A DNA stretch of 64,000 nucleotides, taken from positions 1 through 64,000 of the forward strand of contig WTFU01000054.1 of NCBI GenBank assembly GCA_011523945.1. Direction: 5' to 3'. The notes under the pieces were generated by a model, which was not told where the DNA came from, ran no database searches, and saw only the letters and a program-made list of their open reading frames with translations. Position numbers and translations under genes: made by a program. The stretch is from Mariniblastus sp. (lineage in GTDB: Bacteria; Planctomycetota; Planctomycetia; Pirellulales; Pirellulaceae). Positions 33,158 to 41,010 of the stretch are shown here, in pieces (positions within the stretch are counted from its first letter, which is position 1; every line of letters begins with the position of its first letter).

Positions 33158-33416
33158 ATCCATCGCACCACTGTTCCGTTGCCAGCAATGCTGCATCTGT
33201 TCATTGAACTTATCTTGCAACGTCTTTCGCGCTGATCAGACATTAAAAACCATGGTTCTCCATGGCTTATTGCTCTTGAGGCACTAGTTGAGCGTAGTAA
33301 AAGCTGCCTTGACTCTCTCGCTCGATTTCAGCTAAAAGTCGCATCTGCTGTTGCCTAGGAATTGCGTTTCTAGCAATGCAGTTTTGCACAAATTATTACC
33401 TATCGATCGAACGTCC

Positions 33417-33941
33417 ATGCAATTGAACCGCAGACGAGTAGTACCTGAGGTTGACCAACCCCAGCTTACAGATATCGGACAGTTAACCCACGACATTCTG
33501 GACCGCTATCGACTTCAAATGGCAGACCAAAACATTTTACTCGAAACGGATTTCGATTCCGTAGAAGCATCGATCGCCACGTCAAAAATTCAATCCATTG
33601 TGACCGCATTGATTGAGAACGCACTTGAGCCGATGAGTCATGGTGGCGAAATCTCCGTAACATTAATTGATGGAAAGTACCAATGGGAACTTGAGGTAGC
33701 CGATTCGTTTGGCATGGCTTTCAGCAACGCAGACCCGCTCCGTCGGAATTCCGACGAACATCTCCCCACGATTATTCCATTCCCTGAATCGCAACAACTA
33801 CGAGACGCTCACCTCACCGCCATTTCTCTGGGCGCCCAAATTGAGACCTGGAACTGTCCGCAAGGTGGAACCGCACGCGTCCTCACGGTACCGCGTCAAC
33901 ATAAAAACCAAAAACCGGAAATGCAATTCTCAACTTTTTAA
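33417..33941 (+). CDS. Stand-alone histidine-kinase-like (GHKL) ATPase domain protein
   Basis: DIGQLTHDILDRYRLQMADQNILLETDFDSVEASIATSKIQSIVTALIENALEPMSHGGEISVTL matches the linker and N-box region of HK catalytic domains; no phosphoacceptor domain. Confidence 0.65.
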   Translation: MQLNRRRVVPEVDQPQLTDIGQLTHDILDRYRLQMADQNILLETDFDSVEASIATSKIQSIVTALIENALEPMSHGGEISVTLIDGKYQWELEVADSFGMAFSNADPLRRNSDEHLPTIIPFPESQQLRDAHLTAISLGAQIETWNCPQGGTARVLTVPRQHKNQKPEMQFSTF

Positions 33942-33992
33942 AACAACACATTCAAGGCGTTCTTGAGTCACCTCTTACACACTGACAATCTG

Positions 33993-35510
33993 ATGGATAG
34001 CCAGCCAATAACATTCGAAAACGTAATCAGATTTGCCAGGCAGCGGCGCATCCGTGCATTGTTTGTTGGCGTTACTATGCTTGCCGTGCTTGCCGTGCTT
34101 CAAGTCCAACAACAAACTAGCGACTCCCGTTTATGCGAACTTTATCCGAATGCCAAATTGAGCGAAGGGGAATTGTATCGTCTCGAAGTAGCTCTAATCC
34201 AAGAAGACCTCGACGAATTCGAAACAAGTACCGAGGGCAAACTGCTCGTCCCGACCAGCAAACGACTGGAATATATGAAAGCGATTGCACGACAGGACGC
34301 AGAACCAATTGACTATCGGAAACTAGAAGGCACTGAAGACGCTACCCCAAGCATTTTCCTTCCAAAATCCGCGCGTGATGCAATCACACTGGAAACCAGA
34401 AAAAAGAAAATTGAAAAAAATATCCTGAGATTGCCGTATATCGTTGAGGCAATCTTTGAAATGGACCAACCATCTGGATTTACGACATTTCAAAAACAAC
34501 AACTTCGAGCATCCATTTCACTTGCTACGAAAGACACCGTGCCGTTAACCGAGGAACACGTAAAAACAATCAAGGCGATCATTCAGGTTGCTGCTGGAGT
34601 CGAGTTAAATGACATTGTCATGATCGACCTTAATACCGGGCTAATTCACGACGAGCCTCCATCAAAATTAACTGACAAAAATATCTGCAATGTTGCCTCT
34701 GACATCTCCAAAACAAAACGCACCTGCGAGAATCGCATCAGTGAAGCACTTACCATGTATCCCGAGATTAAGGCAACCGTAGACATTTCCGTCGAACCTG
34801 CCACAGCTAATCTAGCTCTGAAACAAAAAAGAGAAATGAAACCAACGCAGGTATCGAAAACAGGCTCGCCTTCATTTCTTTTGGCCGGAGCCAACGCTGC
34901 CGTCAAACTTGACACAGCACCTTACCAGATTCCAGAGGCGGACCAACAAGAAATTGAATCTCCAAGGAACATGACCAAGCTCGTTTCAATTTCCATCGAT
35001 GTTCCGGAACAGTTAGTAAATGACTGTATCCAGGCGTCACACTCGACTTTAAGTAAAAATGATCAGGAAACTTTAGCCTTGAACCAAGAAGTGTTCAGCT
35101 CGCAATTTAAGAATCTAAAATCTGAAATATCTAAAAAAATTGAATCGACTCTCATGGCTATACCAGATCTAAAATGCGACGACTCAATTGCATTTAATCT
35201 AATTCCAGCAACGAAGACTGCCGCAGTACCACTGGATTTGCGGCTAAAACAAATCGCTGCGGAAAACTGGCCTTCCGGCATTGTCTTACTCGTCGGCCTG
35301 TTCCTTTTGGTTTCGATTTCCCGTGGTACCGACCCTCTTCCGAATGACACAAATCTTCAATTCTCAAGCCGCAACAGACAATCAGGCACGAACTCTGCAA
35401 TTGACGCAACCCCTTCCTCAGACTCAGAAGCGCGATTGACTCAACTCATTGAAAAAGATCCAGATGCCGCGGCAAGAGTCATTGAGTCATGGATCCGTGA
35501 CGCGGCTTAA
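33993..35510 (+). CDS. FliF-like MS-ring protein (divergent)
   Basis: N-terminal TM; LYPNAKLSEGELYRLEVALIQEDLDEF..LLVPTSKRLEYMKAIARQD and RASISLATKDTVPLTEEHVKTIKAIIQVAAGVELNDIVMIDLNTGLI resemble FliF; second TM; C-terminal LIEKDPDAAARVIESWIRDAA resembles the FliG-binding tail. Confidence 0.75.
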   Translation: MDSQPITFENVIRFARQRRIRALFVGVTMLAVLAVLQVQQQTSDSRLCELYPNAKLSEGELYRLEVALIQEDLDEFETSTEGKLLVPTSKRLEYMKAIARQDAEPIDYRKLEGTEDATPSIFLPKSARDAITLETRKKKIEKNILRLPYIVEAIFEMDQPSGFTTFQKQQLRASISLATKDTVPLTEEHVKTIKAIIQVAAGVELNDIVMIDLNTGLIHDEPPSKLTDKNICNVASDISKTKRTCENRISEALTMYPEIKATVDISVEPATANLALKQKREMKPTQVSKTGSPSFLLAGANAAVKLDTAPYQIPEADQQEIESPRNMTKLVSISIDVPEQLVNDCIQASHSTLSKNDQETLALNQEVFSSQFKNLKSEISKKIESTLMAIPDLKCDDSIAFNLIPATKTAAVPLDLRLKQIAAENWPSGIVLLVGLFLLVSISRGTDPLPNDTNLQFSSRNRQSGTNSAIDATPSSDSEARLTQLIEKDPDAAARVIESWIRDAA

Positions 35511-35754: not shown

Positions 35755-36636
35755 ATGAGACAAATTTTCAATTTTAATAAGACAATTTTGTCCCTCGGCA
35801 AATCCGCAAAACGATGCAGCCTGTTTGCCTGCATAACATTTGTTGTGTCCACTTGCTTACTGCCCAACAACTGCATTTTTGCTCAAACGAACTTTCAAGA
35901 TGGTGCTGCAAAGATTCCAGTTGAAGTTAAAGACCGCAAGTTGGAAATGGAATTTCCGGAGTTCGATGACGAGCAATGGGATGGGAGGAAGACAAGTTAC
36001 GACAATAGCCTCCCGAAACCTCTCCCGGCGAAGCCCCCGATTGGCACACCAGAGCAAGATACCCCGCAACAACCCTCAAGTAATATTGGAGCTTCCCCAA
36101 CAACGCCACTTTCGAGCTTCAGCTCCACATTTGCAAACCTAGAACCTTGGCTCGGAAAACTAAAACAACTTACCGGCTCCTCCGACATCGGGAGGATGGT
36201 AGGCAGCCTGGCCCTCGTTCTCGGTCTTTACTTCGGATTCGTTTGGGTCATGCGAAAACTAAGTCCGTCCGGCAGTCAGAACCTACCGCGAGAAGTTCTT
36301 GAGCTAGTTGGGCAAATCCCATTTGGCCCCAAGCGAAACTTACAATTAATTCGCTTGGGTAGCAAACTCTTGTTAATTATCAATAGTGCAGAAGGCTCTC
36401 AGGCCATTGGAGAAATTACCGACCCAAATGAGGTTGAGTACTTAGTTTCCTTATGCGGAGGCCGCCGCCATCCGTTCGAACCAAAAATGAGACCGGCCCC
36501 CGCCCCCACACCTGTTCCCGCCACTGCTCCCCCTCAACCATCTCAGTCACAAGCTCAGCAACAAAACAATCTCGCGAGCATTCTGCGAACTCTTGACTTA
36601 TCTGCTCATTCCAATAACTCAGTTTTCGAAGCCTAA
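35755..36636 (+). CDS. fliO: FliO-like flagellar biosynthetic protein
   Basis: MVGSLALVLGLYFGFVWVMRKL...LPREVLELVGQIPFGPKRNLQLIRLGSKLLLI; located upstream of fliP. Confidence 0.8.
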   Translation: MRQIFNFNKTILSLGKSAKRCSLFACITFVVSTCLLPNNCIFAQTNFQDGAAKIPVEVKDRKLEMEFPEFDDEQWDGRKTSYDNSLPKPLPAKPPIGTPEQDTPQQPSSNIGASPTTPLSSFSSTFANLEPWLGKLKQLTGSSDIGRMVGSLALVLGLYFGFVWVMRKLSPSGSQNLPREVLELVGQIPFGPKRNLQLIRLGSKLLLIINSAEGSQAIGEITDPNEVEYLVSLCGGRRHPFEPKMRPAPAPTPVPATAPPQPSQSQAQQQNNLASILRTLDLSAHSNNSVFEA

Positions 36637-36662: not shown

Positions 36663-37652
36663 TTGCACACTTTTCGTTCCAAATTAACATCAGCGCATGC
36701 GTTACTTCGGTACTGCGCGTTGGCTTTGTTTAGCATTGGCCTATTGGTCGGCAACCAAACAGCCGCGGCGCAGTTGTCGAGCCCAGATTCGCTCGATGAA
36801 CAAAACTCACAAACCGCCAGTTCTTCAGATCAGCTGCCCAGTGAAGTTAGAAGTCAACTTGGGTTAGCAATTCCGCCTGGCTCCCCGACAACGTCACTGG
36901 GCGCTTCCCCTGACCACGCAGCTTCTTCCCTTCAGCCATCGGTCACATCTTTTCTATCATCACCGACCGACCAGCTAACATCTCCCCAGGGTTTAACCTC
37001 CTCCATAAAAGTTGCCTTAATCTTGGCAACCTTGAGTCTGGCTCCAGCGATTGTCCTGATGACAACCTGCTACGTGAGAGTCATCGTGGTTTTAACCTTG
37101 CTCAAGCAAGCATTTGGGGCTCAACAATTACCTCCGACACAAGTTTTGACAGCTCTCTCACTGTTCGTGACGTTGCTAATCATGACACCCGTTTGGCAGG
37201 AAGTAAAAAATGAAGCAATTGACCCCTATACACAAACGGAAAATGGAATCAGTTGGGAGGAGGCATGGACCCGCGGAATTGCCCCCGTGAAAACATTCAT
37301 GGCCAAACAGATTGAAGCTGCGGGAAATGCAGAATCGATTGCGGTATTTTACAAATACGTCCCCGAATACTCCGAAGCGGCACCAACTAGCGCACAGGAG
37401 GTTCCAATCAATGTCCTGTTACCCGCATTCATGGTGAGTGAACTTAAGGTAGCGTTCTTACTTGGTTTTCAAATCTTTCTTCCATTTTTAGTTCTTGATC
37501 TAGTTGTCTCATCCGTCACTGTCTCGACGGGAATGCTAATGTTGCCTCCGACAATGGTTAGCTTTCCTTTAAAACTCATACTGTTTGTGTTGGTGGATGG
37601 CTGGAATCTTGTGGTGGGAATGTTACTTCAAAGCTTCCTTCCCATCACCTGA
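36663..37652 (+). CDS. fliP: Flagellar biosynthetic protein FliP
   Basis: LATLSLAPAIVLMTTCYVRVIVVLTLLKQAFGAQQLPPTQVLTALSLFVTLLIMTPVW; ELKVAFLLGFQIFLPFLVLDLVVSSVTVSTGMLMLPPTMVSFPLKLILFVLVDGWNL. Confidence 0.95.
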   Translation: MHTFRSKLTSAHALLRYCALALFSIGLLVGNQTAAAQLSSPDSLDEQNSQTASSSDQLPSEVRSQLGLAIPPGSPTTSLGASPDHAASSLQPSVTSFLSSPTDQLTSPQGLTSSIKVALILATLSLAPAIVLMTTCYVRVIVVLTLLKQAFGAQQLPPTQVLTALSLFVTLLIMTPVWQEVKNEAIDPYTQTENGISWEEAWTRGIAPVKTFMAKQIEAAGNAESIAVFYKYVPEYSEAAPTSAQEVPINVLLPAFMVSELKVAFLLGFQIFLPFLVLDLVVSSVTVSTGMLMLPPTMVSFPLKLILFVLVDGWNLVVGMLLQSFLPIT

Positions 37653-37736: not shown

Positions 37737-38282
37737 ATGAACCCCGAAGATGCAATCGACTTCAGTCGCGAAGCCATGAAAACGTGCATGTTAGTTGGAG
37801 GCCCAATTCTCGTGACTAGCTTACTCGTTGGCTTGATCATCGGCGTTATTCAAACCATGACCCAGGTTCAGGATCAAACGGTTTCGTTTGTTCCCAAAAT
37901 CCTCATTTTGATTGCCGTAATTGGACTCTGCCTACCCTGGCTGACTGAACGCATGACCGATTTCGCTCGAATGTCATTTGAAAAGCCAATGACTCAATGG
38001 GCAAGTTCTCCCCCACCGACACTCTTCGCCAGTGCCTCCGAAGTAGAAACTAAATCAGATTCAACCGATGCAATTTCGGAACCCATCGCGACAACGCGGG
38101 CTTCCAACATAAAGCCTGACAATTCTATCTTTTCTCTCATCGGTCAGTTTCAAAAAATTGAGCAATCGATGGAGCAACCGACCCAACGCGACCCTGACAG
38201 TCAATCGGAAGCATCTAACAATCCGTTCCTACTTCCTCATTATCGCGTCTCCAAAGCACCCCGGACTGAAAAAGGCGGGTAA
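37737..38282 (+). CDS. fliQ: Flagellar biosynthetic protein FliQ with C-terminal extension
   Basis: AMKTCMLVGGPILVTSLLVGLIIGVIQTMTQVQDQTVSFVPKILIL is FliQ; additional ~90 aa disordered tail. Confidence 0.92.
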   Translation: MNPEDAIDFSREAMKTCMLVGGPILVTSLLVGLIIGVIQTMTQVQDQTVSFVPKILILIAVIGLCLPWLTERMTDFARMSFEKPMTQWASSPPPTLFASASEVETKSDSTDAISEPIATTRASNIKPDNSIFSLIGQFQKIEQSMEQPTQRDPDSQSEASNNPFLLPHYRVSKAPRTEKGG

Positions 38283-38284
38283 CA

Positions 38285-39061
38285 ATGGATTCAGCATTGA
38301 TCTTTTTTCTTGTATTCTCAAGGGTTACGGCATTGGTGATGACGGCACCAATTTTTGGCAGCCGATCTGTGCCGTTAAAAATTCGATTGGGAACTGCCGT
38401 GCTTTTGAGCTTGACTGCATTTCCATTAATTACACTTCCCGAATTCGAACCATCCAATCTTGAGAGCCTTTTTTCGGCAATCTTTAGCGAAGTTGTCATT
38501 GGCTCACTTTTAGGATTGGGGGTAATGATAATGTTTTCAGCCGCTCAATTTGCCGGAACCGTTATCGGGCAAATGGCAGGAATTCAAATCTCCAATACAC
38601 TTGATCCGCAAACTGGCGAAAACTCATCCACCATCAGCCAGTTGTTTGCCATTCTTTCACTAGCTGCATTTGCCCTCGCTGGTGGCCCCGAATTAGTTAT
38701 TTCTGCGCTTCTTGATACATTTATTCATCTCCCACTTGGAACCGAATTAGCCCCTAATCGAATAAGCGAAATTTTAGTCAGCCTCTTGCAACAGAGTTTC
38801 ATCTTAACACTTCGCGGCGTCGCTCCGGCAGTTGCCGCAATGCTAATTGCGACCATCATAATTGGGTTCGTCAGCCGAACTTACCCGCAAATGAACCTGC
38901 TTGGCATGGGACTCAGTTCCAATCTTATCGTGATGCTTCTCGCGGTTTTTTTGACCCTAGGCGGTAGCGTGTGGTTATTCGTAGACGATTTGGATCACTT
39001 CGTTTCAATGATCACAGATTCCATGCAATCGTCGATCAAAGAGGTCGCAAAGAATGAGTGA
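38285..39061 (+). CDS. fliR: Flagellar biosynthetic protein FliR
   Basis: FFLVFSRVTALVMTAPIFGSRSVPLKIRLGTAVLLS, ...FAGTVIGQMAGIQISNTLDPQTGENSSTISQL. Confidence 0.93.
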   Translation: MDSALIFFLVFSRVTALVMTAPIFGSRSVPLKIRLGTAVLLSLTAFPLITLPEFEPSNLESLFSAIFSEVVIGSLLGLGVMIMFSAAQFAGTVIGQMAGIQISNTLDPQTGENSSTISQLFAILSLAAFALAGGPELVISALLDTFIHLPLGTELAPNRISEILVSLLQQSFILTLRGVAPAVAAMLIATIIIGFVSRTYPQMNLLGMGLSSNLIVMLLAVFLTLGGSVWLFVDDLDHFVSMITDSMQSSIKEVAKNE

Positions 39062-39806
39062 ATCCATGGAAGACCGCATTCACCAGGCAACTCCAAGCCG
39101 ACGGCAACAAGCCCGACAGAATGGCGATATTGTCAAGAGTCATGAAATGGCTGCCGCCGTCCAAATGCTTGGTGCCATTGCAATTACCTACTATCTGCTT
39201 GGAGGTATCAGCAACTGGATTCGCAACTGGACCGCTGAAATTTGGACATTAGCCTCGGGCAACTTAAACATGTCCAATCAGGAATTCACCGAACAGATTC
39301 AACTCACTATCCTCGGTGCCGTTACTCACCTCGCACCTCTGCTGTGCCTACTCGTTGTCGTAGGAGTGGTTTCCCACTGGATTCAATCTGGCCCACTCTT
39401 ATTGCCTGGACGAGTTTCCCCCGATCCAACGCGACTGGCATCTGGTGCATGGAGAAACATTTTCTCATTTAGTGGATTCTTTACCATCATCACTGGGATT
39501 CCTAAAACGATCGTCGCAGGAATCGCAGGAGGAACAAGTATTTGGATTCAACAAGCAAGTTTTTTTCAGTTGGCGAACCTACCAATTGACTTAATGGCTA
39601 CCAAACTGCTGGGCCTCGTACTCGGTGTTTCACTACACGTTGCAATTACTCTCTTGTTTGCATCGACATTAGACTTCTTCATGAAATTTGTCAGTCATGA
39701 AAATCGTCTCAAAATGACCGACCAACAACTACGCGACGAAATGAGAATGCAAAACGGCGATCCTCAGATTCACCGGCGGCGTCAAGAATTGAGCCGATTA
39801 AGATAA
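39054..39806 (+). CDS. flhB: FlhB-like export protein lacking the C-terminal autocleavage domain
   Basis: Starts EDRIHQATPSRRQQARQNGDIVKSHEM (FlhB EKTExPTPKRxxxAR-like), TM block, then KMTDQQLRDEMRMQNGDPQIHRRRQELSRLR and stop; 8-nt overlap with fliR. Confidence 0.9.
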   Translation: MSESMEDRIHQATPSRRQQARQNGDIVKSHEMAAAVQMLGAIAITYYLLGGISNWIRNWTAEIWTLASGNLNMSNQEFTEQIQLTILGAVTHLAPLLCLLVVVGVVSHWIQSGPLLLPGRVSPDPTRLASGAWRNIFSFSGFFTIITGIPKTIVAGIAGGTSIWIQQASFFQLANLPIDLMATKLLGLVLGVSLHVAITLLFASTLDFFMKFVSHENRLKMTDQQLRDEMRMQNGDPQIHRRRQELSRLR

Positions 39807-39849: not shown

Positions 39850-41010
39850 TCAGCCCGTCGCGCTTTCAAATGGATCTGAATAACCAAATTCATCCATGTA
39901 GCGATGCCAATTGTTATCAATTTCAAGTTCGAGCGAAGACTCAAGCGTAAAAGGGTTCTTTTTATGGTGCTTTTTGCGCTCGAAATACTCTATCAGCGAC
40001 GGCTCTAGTTCCGCAAACCCATCCATCTCAAGTTGGTCGTAAACTCGTTCCATTTCGCCGATCGGCTCAGAGATGAGATTTTCAAAGTTAACCTCAACTA
40101 ATTGGTTTTTTGGAATCGAATCACGTTGATTAAAGTAGGCCGAATACATCAGATCTTTACACTCAAAAATGTAGTTTTTGAGCCATGTATCATCGTATCT
40201 TGGAATCTGAAATCCTTGAAGCGAATCCAAAAGCTTCCATAGCCTCATCGTCGAAGGCACAAGTTTGTGCGGGTGACGCGCCATGTGAACAAACTTCGCC
40301 CCGGGAAACCAGTCGGCCAACTGCGACAGACGTCCGGTGTGAGGAGGTGACTTCAGAACCAACTGCGAGTCGTACCTGACCGTAAGTGCCTTTAGGAAAT
40401 AATCCATGGCCACGTGCAATCGCTCCTGCACCTCGTAATCCGCATCAGAAAGTTTGAGATTTAGGTGCTCTCGATTCGGTTGATTCGGAAACGCAATCCT
40501 ACGGTAAGGCGTTGGAGCTCCATAAGCACACAATGCAAAATCATCTTCTTGAGGAGACCCGACTCCCATCGACATATTGTCCATCGGTCGTTGCCGAGGC
40601 ATCAATAATTTCAAAAAGGGATAAAAAAAGAAGCGTGAAGCAAGAAAATGATTGGGAATAAATGCATCAAAATTCGTTGGAAAGGCCAATCGCGAATCCA
40701 AAGACATCAACTCATGCATCAACGTCGTGCCGGAACGCCAATGCCCAATAATAAAAACGGGGGGCTTTTTGAGTTGAGCAGACTCAATCACACTTCCGTG
40801 CGTAACATCTTGGACCTGAGCGAGGATTGAATTCATCACGGCGCATCCACCGCCGAGAGCAAACATTGGATACTTGAACGGATGGATCTTAAAACGGTTC
40901 TCTCTCATTAACCGCAGATAATCACCCAAACGCATCCCGTTCCAAAACCTGGGGGCCCACGGCGGATACCAATTAGGTTTCGGTTTTGATTTTGTAGATG
41001 TATTTGACAT
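39850..41010 (-). CDS. Sulfotransferase family protein
   Basis: PAPS-loop-like FIIGHWRSGTTLMHELMSLD; KSPPHTGRLSQLADWFPGAKFVHMARHP. Confidence 0.88.
   Translation of the reverse strand: MSNTSTKSKPKPNWYPPWAPRFWNGMRLGDYLRLMRENRFKIHPFKYPMFALGGGCAVMNSILAQVQDVTHGSVIESAQLKKPPVFIIGHWRSGTTLMHELMSLDSRLAFPTNFDAFIPNHFLASRFFFYPFLKLLMPRQRPMDNMSMGVGSPQEDDFALCAYGAPTPYRRIAFPNQPNREHLNLKLSDADYEVQERLHVAMDYFLKALTVRYDSQLVLKSPPHTGRLSQLADWFPGAKFVHMARHPHKLVPSTMRLWKLLDSLQGFQIPRYDDTWLKNYIFECKDLMYSAYFNQRDSIPKNQLVEVNFENLISEPIGEMERVYDQLEMDGFAELEPSLIEYFERKKHHKKNPFTLESSLELEIDNNWHRYMDEFGYSDPFESATG

Follow-up and report, generated by a model that had tools for sequence, protein, structure and literature searches.

The C-terminal domain of FlhB has hitherto been studied for its role in type III export mainly with laboratory mutants. 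In Salmonella, sigma-28 is the export chaperone of FlgM. The CORE complex reported for bacterial nanotubes is made of export-gate membrane proteins, in a set similar to FliOPQR-FlhB-FlhA.

The 383-aa FlhB of Salmonella is cleaved between N269 and P270, and in strains without the rod-hook genes and Flk, FlhB with a stop at 258 (stop-258) or with a deletion of residues 270 to 383 gives export of a FlgM reporter (PMC13344023). The deletion of residues 270 to 383 abolishes export of an early substrate, a hook-protein reporter; such FlhB_N-only gates function poorly unless overexpressed, and loss of Flk is still needed (PMC13344023). Planctomycetes are listed as flagellated taxa, and not among the carriers of nonflagellar type III secretion systems (T3SS) (PMC3459982). 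The motor proteins that remain after loss of the filament have been discussed in general terms, with Planctomycetes and FlhB unnamed (PMC12199754), and nanotubes are mentioned in PMC9380563. The searchable literature, outside of which most subscription papers lie, holds no description of a gate that naturally has FlhB_N only, nor of a planctomycete system of this kind, an absence that is weak evidence.

The window analyzed here, a stretch of 64,000 nucleotides from a Mariniblastus species, encodes an FlhB without this domain, which the comparisons below indicate is a real, conserved, and nonartefactual feature. The same domain has been removed in nature, seemingly by parallel events in several lineages that accompanied the loss of rod and hook, and the gate is kept with FlhA, sigma-28, and FlgM despite that loss. 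Two questions thereby become testable: the job of an export gate in a cell that has no flagellum, and whether the FlhB C-terminal domain (FlhB_C) is required for anything besides early substrates and switching.

RESULTS

The window FlhB stops at the cytoplasmic linker

The window carries the second export-gate cluster of its genome, in the order FliF-FliO-FliP-FliQ-FliR-FlhB_N (Table 1), with an 8-bp overlap between the end of fliR and the start of flhB_N. A promoter scan upstream of the gate genes retrieved nothing convincing as a classical sigma-28 promoter. The sulfotransferase-like gene adjoins flhB in flagellated and nonflagellated relatives alike and is not taken as part of the gate, and the HATPase_c-like gene keeps its position upstream of fliF in many relatives.

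Table 1. Genes of the export-gate cluster in the window and their immediate neighbors
Feature	Position	Strand	Matches and remarks
Small HATPase_c-like protein	33351..33941	+	PF02518, weak (E 0.011); conserved gene order
Divergent FliF (MS-ring protein)	33963..35510	+	PF01514, 20 bits, below cut-off; Foldseek match to FliF 9a67
FliO	35755..36636	+	PF04347, E 2.6e-6
FliP	36663..37652	+	PF00813, E 1.8e-66; TIGR01103, 226 bits, above cut-off
FliQ with C-terminal extension	37737..38282	+	PF01313, E 5.4e-26
FliR	38285..39061	+	PF01311, E 8.9e-50
FlhB_N	39054..39806	+	ATG start, TAA stop, 250 aa; transmembrane part plus the first portion of the cytoplasmic linker, without autocleavage/switch domain
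Sulfotransferase-like gene	39850..41010	-	PF13469, E 1.7e-30; syntenic marker

A reading of the window from its sequence only had described an FlhB homologue that ends before the autocleavage domain, and its extent, identity, and end point are all borne out. The product matches PF01312 (Bac_export_2) with an E value of 4.7e-42, limited to profile positions 2 to 237 of 335. A profile built from relatives gives PDB matches to FlhB and SpaS, and the end of the window protein aligns with residues ~250 to 251 of the 383-aa FlhB chain 36hu_K1; the stop thus falls ~19 residues ahead of the autocleavage site. The predicted model of FlhB_N (mean pLDDT of 73.9, built from 16 sequences) has a sole credible PDB match, 6s3l_K, which is the FlhB of the FliPQR-FlhB complex (E 1.5e-3, probability 1.00). 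Sequence and model together indicate that the N-terminal transmembrane (TM) domain of the FlhB/SctU export-switch family, the part that wraps around FliPQR, is present.

The cytoplasmic NPTH autocleavage domain is absent from the open reading frame, from the DNA downstream, and from all readable orthologues of the genus. A tblastn search with the genome's own FlhB_C found no hidden or frameshifted FlhB_C downstream of the open reading frame, the matches being the linker itself, at 39708 to 39803, and a single one at chance level. This agrees with the earlier observation that the 43 bp before the convergent gene leave no space for the missing domain. That no NPTH was to be seen holds for the open reading frame and the downstream DNA, but not for the genome, which carries the motif in a full-length FlhB on another contig. 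A genome search for a stand-alone FlhB_C or FlhX, which the sequence-only reading had proposed as a check, returned nothing at E values up to 10.

The model of the FliF of this cluster has low overall confidence (pLDDT of 63); in Foldseek it retrieves FliF 9a67 with an E value of 9.4e-18, together with many MS-ring structures. The C-terminal motif DPxxAAxxIxxW is invariant among the aligned members of the genus (D499, P500, A503, A504, I507, and W510) and resembles the end of FliF that binds FliG. The rest of the protein diverges, with only 22 to 36% identity shared by distant members.

The same genome encodes a second, complete flagellum

The window genome (5.4 Mb in 208 contigs) encodes two FlhB proteins above the family cut-off, FlhB_N of the window and a 354-aa full-length FlhB with NPTH on contig C108. 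The cluster around the latter is canonical and also holds flgB, flgC, fliE-fliJ, fliQ, and fliR; its gene names were read from translations, and FliI and FliG were confirmed by profile searches. FlhA and FliP are also each present twice: contig C22 has one copy of each, beside FliL-, FliM-, FliN-, and FliO-like genes, and the second copies are split between contig C3 (FlhA) and the window (FliP). This NPTH-type flagellar system (window genome, C108 and C22; L005 and L040) occurs in 9 of 28 members of the genus. It was probably gained after the ancestral flagellum, and possibly after the latter had been lost.

Conservation and selection within Mariniblastus

The sample of the genus (Mariniblastus, Pirellulaceae) comprises 28 genomes, including that of the window. 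All 28 encode a window-type FlhB, and an alignment of these close relatives, again a check suggested from the sequence alone, shows the truncation at the linker in 27/27 genomes with a readable C terminus; G010, where a contig end cuts the gene, is left out of this count. The truncation is also seen in independently deposited assemblies (L238 to L257). Rod and hook genes, FliM/N, FliI and flagellin above their cut-offs, and full-length FlhB are found in the same nine genomes, and TIGR01026 (FliI/SctN ATPase) exceeds its cut-off only in these flagellated members. The other 19 keep the gate without rod, hook, flagellin, FliM/N, FliI, full-length FlhB, or any FlhB_C, where the absences allow for incomplete assemblies and one genome (G024) has a single subthreshold flagellin match. 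Among the components that define a bacterial flagellum, the gate has FliF, FliOPQR, FlhA, sigma-28, and FlgM, and the 19 rod-less genomes have no rod/hook, filament, FliM/N, or FliI of their own.

The dN/dS ratios of FlhB_N, from 0.04 to 0.09 in the close clade and from 0.08 to 0.10 in three rod-less pairs, indicate that it is under purifying selection; G027/G023, a very close pair with few changes, gives 0.42, and dS is saturated for three pairs. FlhB_N and FliF diverge faster than their neighbors, and the frame of FlhB_N is intact in every readable genome. The conserved truncation, the purifying selection, and the conserved gate operon support the earlier suggestion of a natural FlhB_N-only gate.

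Partners of the gate elsewhere in the genome

The FlhA of the gate (FlhA2), sigma-28, and FlgM are encoded on contig C3. Eighteen loci have the order FlhA2, FliA/WhiG sigma factor, and FlgM; rod-less species contribute 12 of these, and FlhA is detected in 26 of the 28 genomes of the genus. The sigma factor (265 bits to TIGR02479 in the window genome) shows at least 88% identity throughout the genus, and FlgM (40 bits to PF04316) has an invariant N terminus, MQIR, and a conserved C-terminal half. At the level of genes, both members of the FlgM/sigma-28 checkpoint are thus present, with a link to the gate. A shared motif, AACGTTC(G/A)AG (L039 at 8838 and 11358; L164 at 13383), precedes flhA2, the sigma-28 gene, and flgM, but only in genomes closely related to that of the window.

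A second FliG (FliG2) is encoded in 24/28 genomes of the genus; FliG_C matches are found in 25/28, with G010 carrying only the canonical FliG. Throughout the genus, a T2SS-like operon ends with FliG2, which is preceded by a GspD-type secretin and a putative lipoprotein (L169:9716-15379, contig C130 in the window genome); the secretin lies on a contig other than that of the gate cluster, which itself has none. By BLAST, FliG2 is nearest to a second FliG family that is also present in flagellated relatives, and it is for this reason not accepted as a certain component of the gate system. In most cases outside the genus, FliG has no secretin next to it. Two different FliGs are found in flagellated relatives (L296 to L301 and L312; L308, L309, and L314), one in the flagellar cluster and the second, more FliG-like, encoded elsewhere.

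Ancestry of the locus and loss of FlhB_C across Pirellulales

Flagellated members of other Pirellulales families have the gene order FlgE...FliN-FliO-FliP-FliQ-FliR-FlhB, and in several of these, a sulfotransferase gene and then FlhA and sigma-28 lie beyond FlhB, which has NPTE. These neighbors are those of the window gate or of FlhA2. In the FliP tree, which has long branches, the window gate groups with the flagellated Pirellulales clusters (98/92), and the NPTH flagellum of Mariniblastus falls with G035 in a separate clade (100/96); support in a single-gene FlhB tree is too weak for use. Because of the gene order and the FliP tree, the window locus is read as the ancestral, vertically inherited Pirellulales flagellar cluster, stripped down. 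A recent duplication of the C108 flagellum is rejected as the source of the window gate because of the FliP tree and synteny. The FlhB of flagellated Pirellulales mostly has NPTE, not NPTH, both in other families (L006 to L023) and in named strains of Rhodopirellula, Aporhodopirellula, and Rubripirellula (L268, L273 to L275, and L285).

Outside the genus, all 19 genomes with a rod encode a full-length FlhB, with NPTE in 17 and NPTH in 2 (G035 and G045); G035 has a truncated second copy in addition. FlhB_C is degenerate or absent in 11 of the 13 rod-less genomes. FlhB is truncated in seven of them (G031, G032, G038, G041, G043, G049, and G056), and in four the C-domain lacks an intact motif, which reads SPTE in G028 and NQAE in G053 and is more degenerate in G029 and G054. 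In G036, the end of the C-domain is present and the motif falls in an assembly gap. The one clear exception is G034, which keeps an intact NPTE FlhB, so that the link between rod and FlhB_C is not absolute. Several rod-less genomes (G028, G034, G049, G053, and G054) look like intermediate stages because FliI and FliN are retained in them.

Under parsimony, the FliP tree requires nine changes of FlhB_C state. The association of FlhB_C with the rod is represented by 3 independent pairs on well-supported branches and 10 on the best tree, numbers at which the statistical test lacks power. Parallel loss of FlhB_C is likely, and the number of losses is uncertain because only three independent pairs lie on well-supported branches. 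Across the order, decay of FlhB_C appears to follow loss of the flagellum.

DISCUSSION

The window locus is, with little room for doubt, a conserved gate that stems from the ancestral Pirellulales flagellum, is under selection in species without a flagellum, and has lost the FlhB switch domain. As the missing domain serves to dock early (rod/hook) subunits and to keep the gate in early mode, its loss would fix the gate in late mode, and by analogy with the laboratory mutants, a gate permanently in late-substrate mode is the reading that we slightly favor. Sigma-28 would then bring FlgM, which would dock on FlhA and leave through the gate, and FlgM export would let the gate set the activity of a sigma-28 regulon unrelated to flagella. 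FlgM is a tentative choice for the main cargo, and another late-type substrate might be exported likewise. The gate would be powered by the proton motive force, since no dedicated FliI was found in the rod-less members of the genus, and the natural FlhB_N would have had to adapt to assembly without the C-domain, since the laboratory mutants needed overexpression. The best explanation overall, for which we see an even chance, is a late-locked gate without a switch, kept for FlgM/sigma-28 or another late-type cargo. A wider proposal, possible but somewhat doubtful, is that Pirellulales gates repeatedly and in parallel became rod-less, switchless, late-locked FlgM exporters signaling for a nonflagellar sigma-28 regulon, in Mariniblastus also without an ATPase.

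The gate could instead be kept as a general secretion or membrane-remodeling core like that of nanotubes, with a nonflagellar cargo unrelated to FlgM. The FliOPQR-FlhB-FlhA retained here without a flagellum comes close to the CORE set, and the rod-less members have neither FliI nor rod or hook, but FliF, sigma-28, and FlgM are kept as well, for which a plain CORE has no obvious need, and we consider this function unlikely. To a similar extent improbable is a role of the gate proteins as scaffold or regulator of another envelope machine, such as the one encoded by the FliG2 operon. The place of FliG2 at the end of an operon with a GspD-type secretin in Mariniblastus would fit such a role, as would the putative FliG-binding tail of FliF, invariant in an otherwise divergent protein, and there is a precedent in Lysobacter, where flagellar export genes affect twitching without a flagellum (PMC7277350). 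However, FliG2 is nearest to the second FliG that flagellated relatives also have, and its adjacency to the secretin may be incidental because outside the genus FliG is mostly not next to one.

A functionless, decaying relic of the lost flagellum would account for the faster divergence of FlhB_N and FliF and for the loss of the other flagellar genes, but the selection data make it very unlikely, given that every readable genome has intact frames, that dN/dS is low in rod-less pairs (the few changes of the one very close pair aside), and that the linked sigma factor is held at its high identity. That FlhB_C comes in trans from the full-length NPTH FlhB of the second flagellum on C108 or from a stand-alone protein hardly deserves credence; this is not a general answer because 19 species of the genus have the gate but no FlhB_C, and the search of the window genome for a free-standing domain was empty. 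The earlier alternative of a domain encoded separately elsewhere is unsupported on the same grounds. Least credible of these explanations is an error in sequencing or assembly, or a nonsense mutation of recent date; error is ruled out because many independent assemblies share the same end point, down to ~30% identity.

With flagellar FlhB (TIGR00328/PF01312), the window protein shares the N-terminal TM domain, the operon place after FliR, and the model match to 6s3l, but it has no autocleavage/switch domain and scores 125 bits, below the TIGR00328 cut-off of 349. The nanotube CORE has a similar membrane-protein set, whereas the system described here also keeps the MS-ring protein, sigma-28, and FlgM. 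Nonflagellar T3SS and injectisomes, including the Myxococcales systems (PMC3459982), likewise have a flagellum-derived gate, no motility parts, and conserved gene order. Unlike these, the gate described here keeps FlgM and sigma-28, its FliP groups with flagellated Pirellulales, and its cluster has neither secretin nor switch domain; the SctN ATPase and the SctU autocleavage domain of an injectisome are absent from the genomes of the genus that lack a flagellum.

Nonflagellated Lysobacter enzymogenes has also kept and reused flagellar export genes, but there export of a test flagellin needs FlhB and FliI (PMC7277350), whereas here only FlhB_N is present and the rod-less members of the genus have no FliI above the cut-off. 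In the Salmonella deletion and stop-258 mutants (PMC13344023), the corresponding piece of FlhB is missing, rod and hook are absent, and FlgM and sigma-28 are present; the window FlhB ends slightly earlier than stop-258, at the equivalent of ~250. Those mutants are defective laboratory strains, whereas in Mariniblastus the same truncation is the fixed natural state of the genus.
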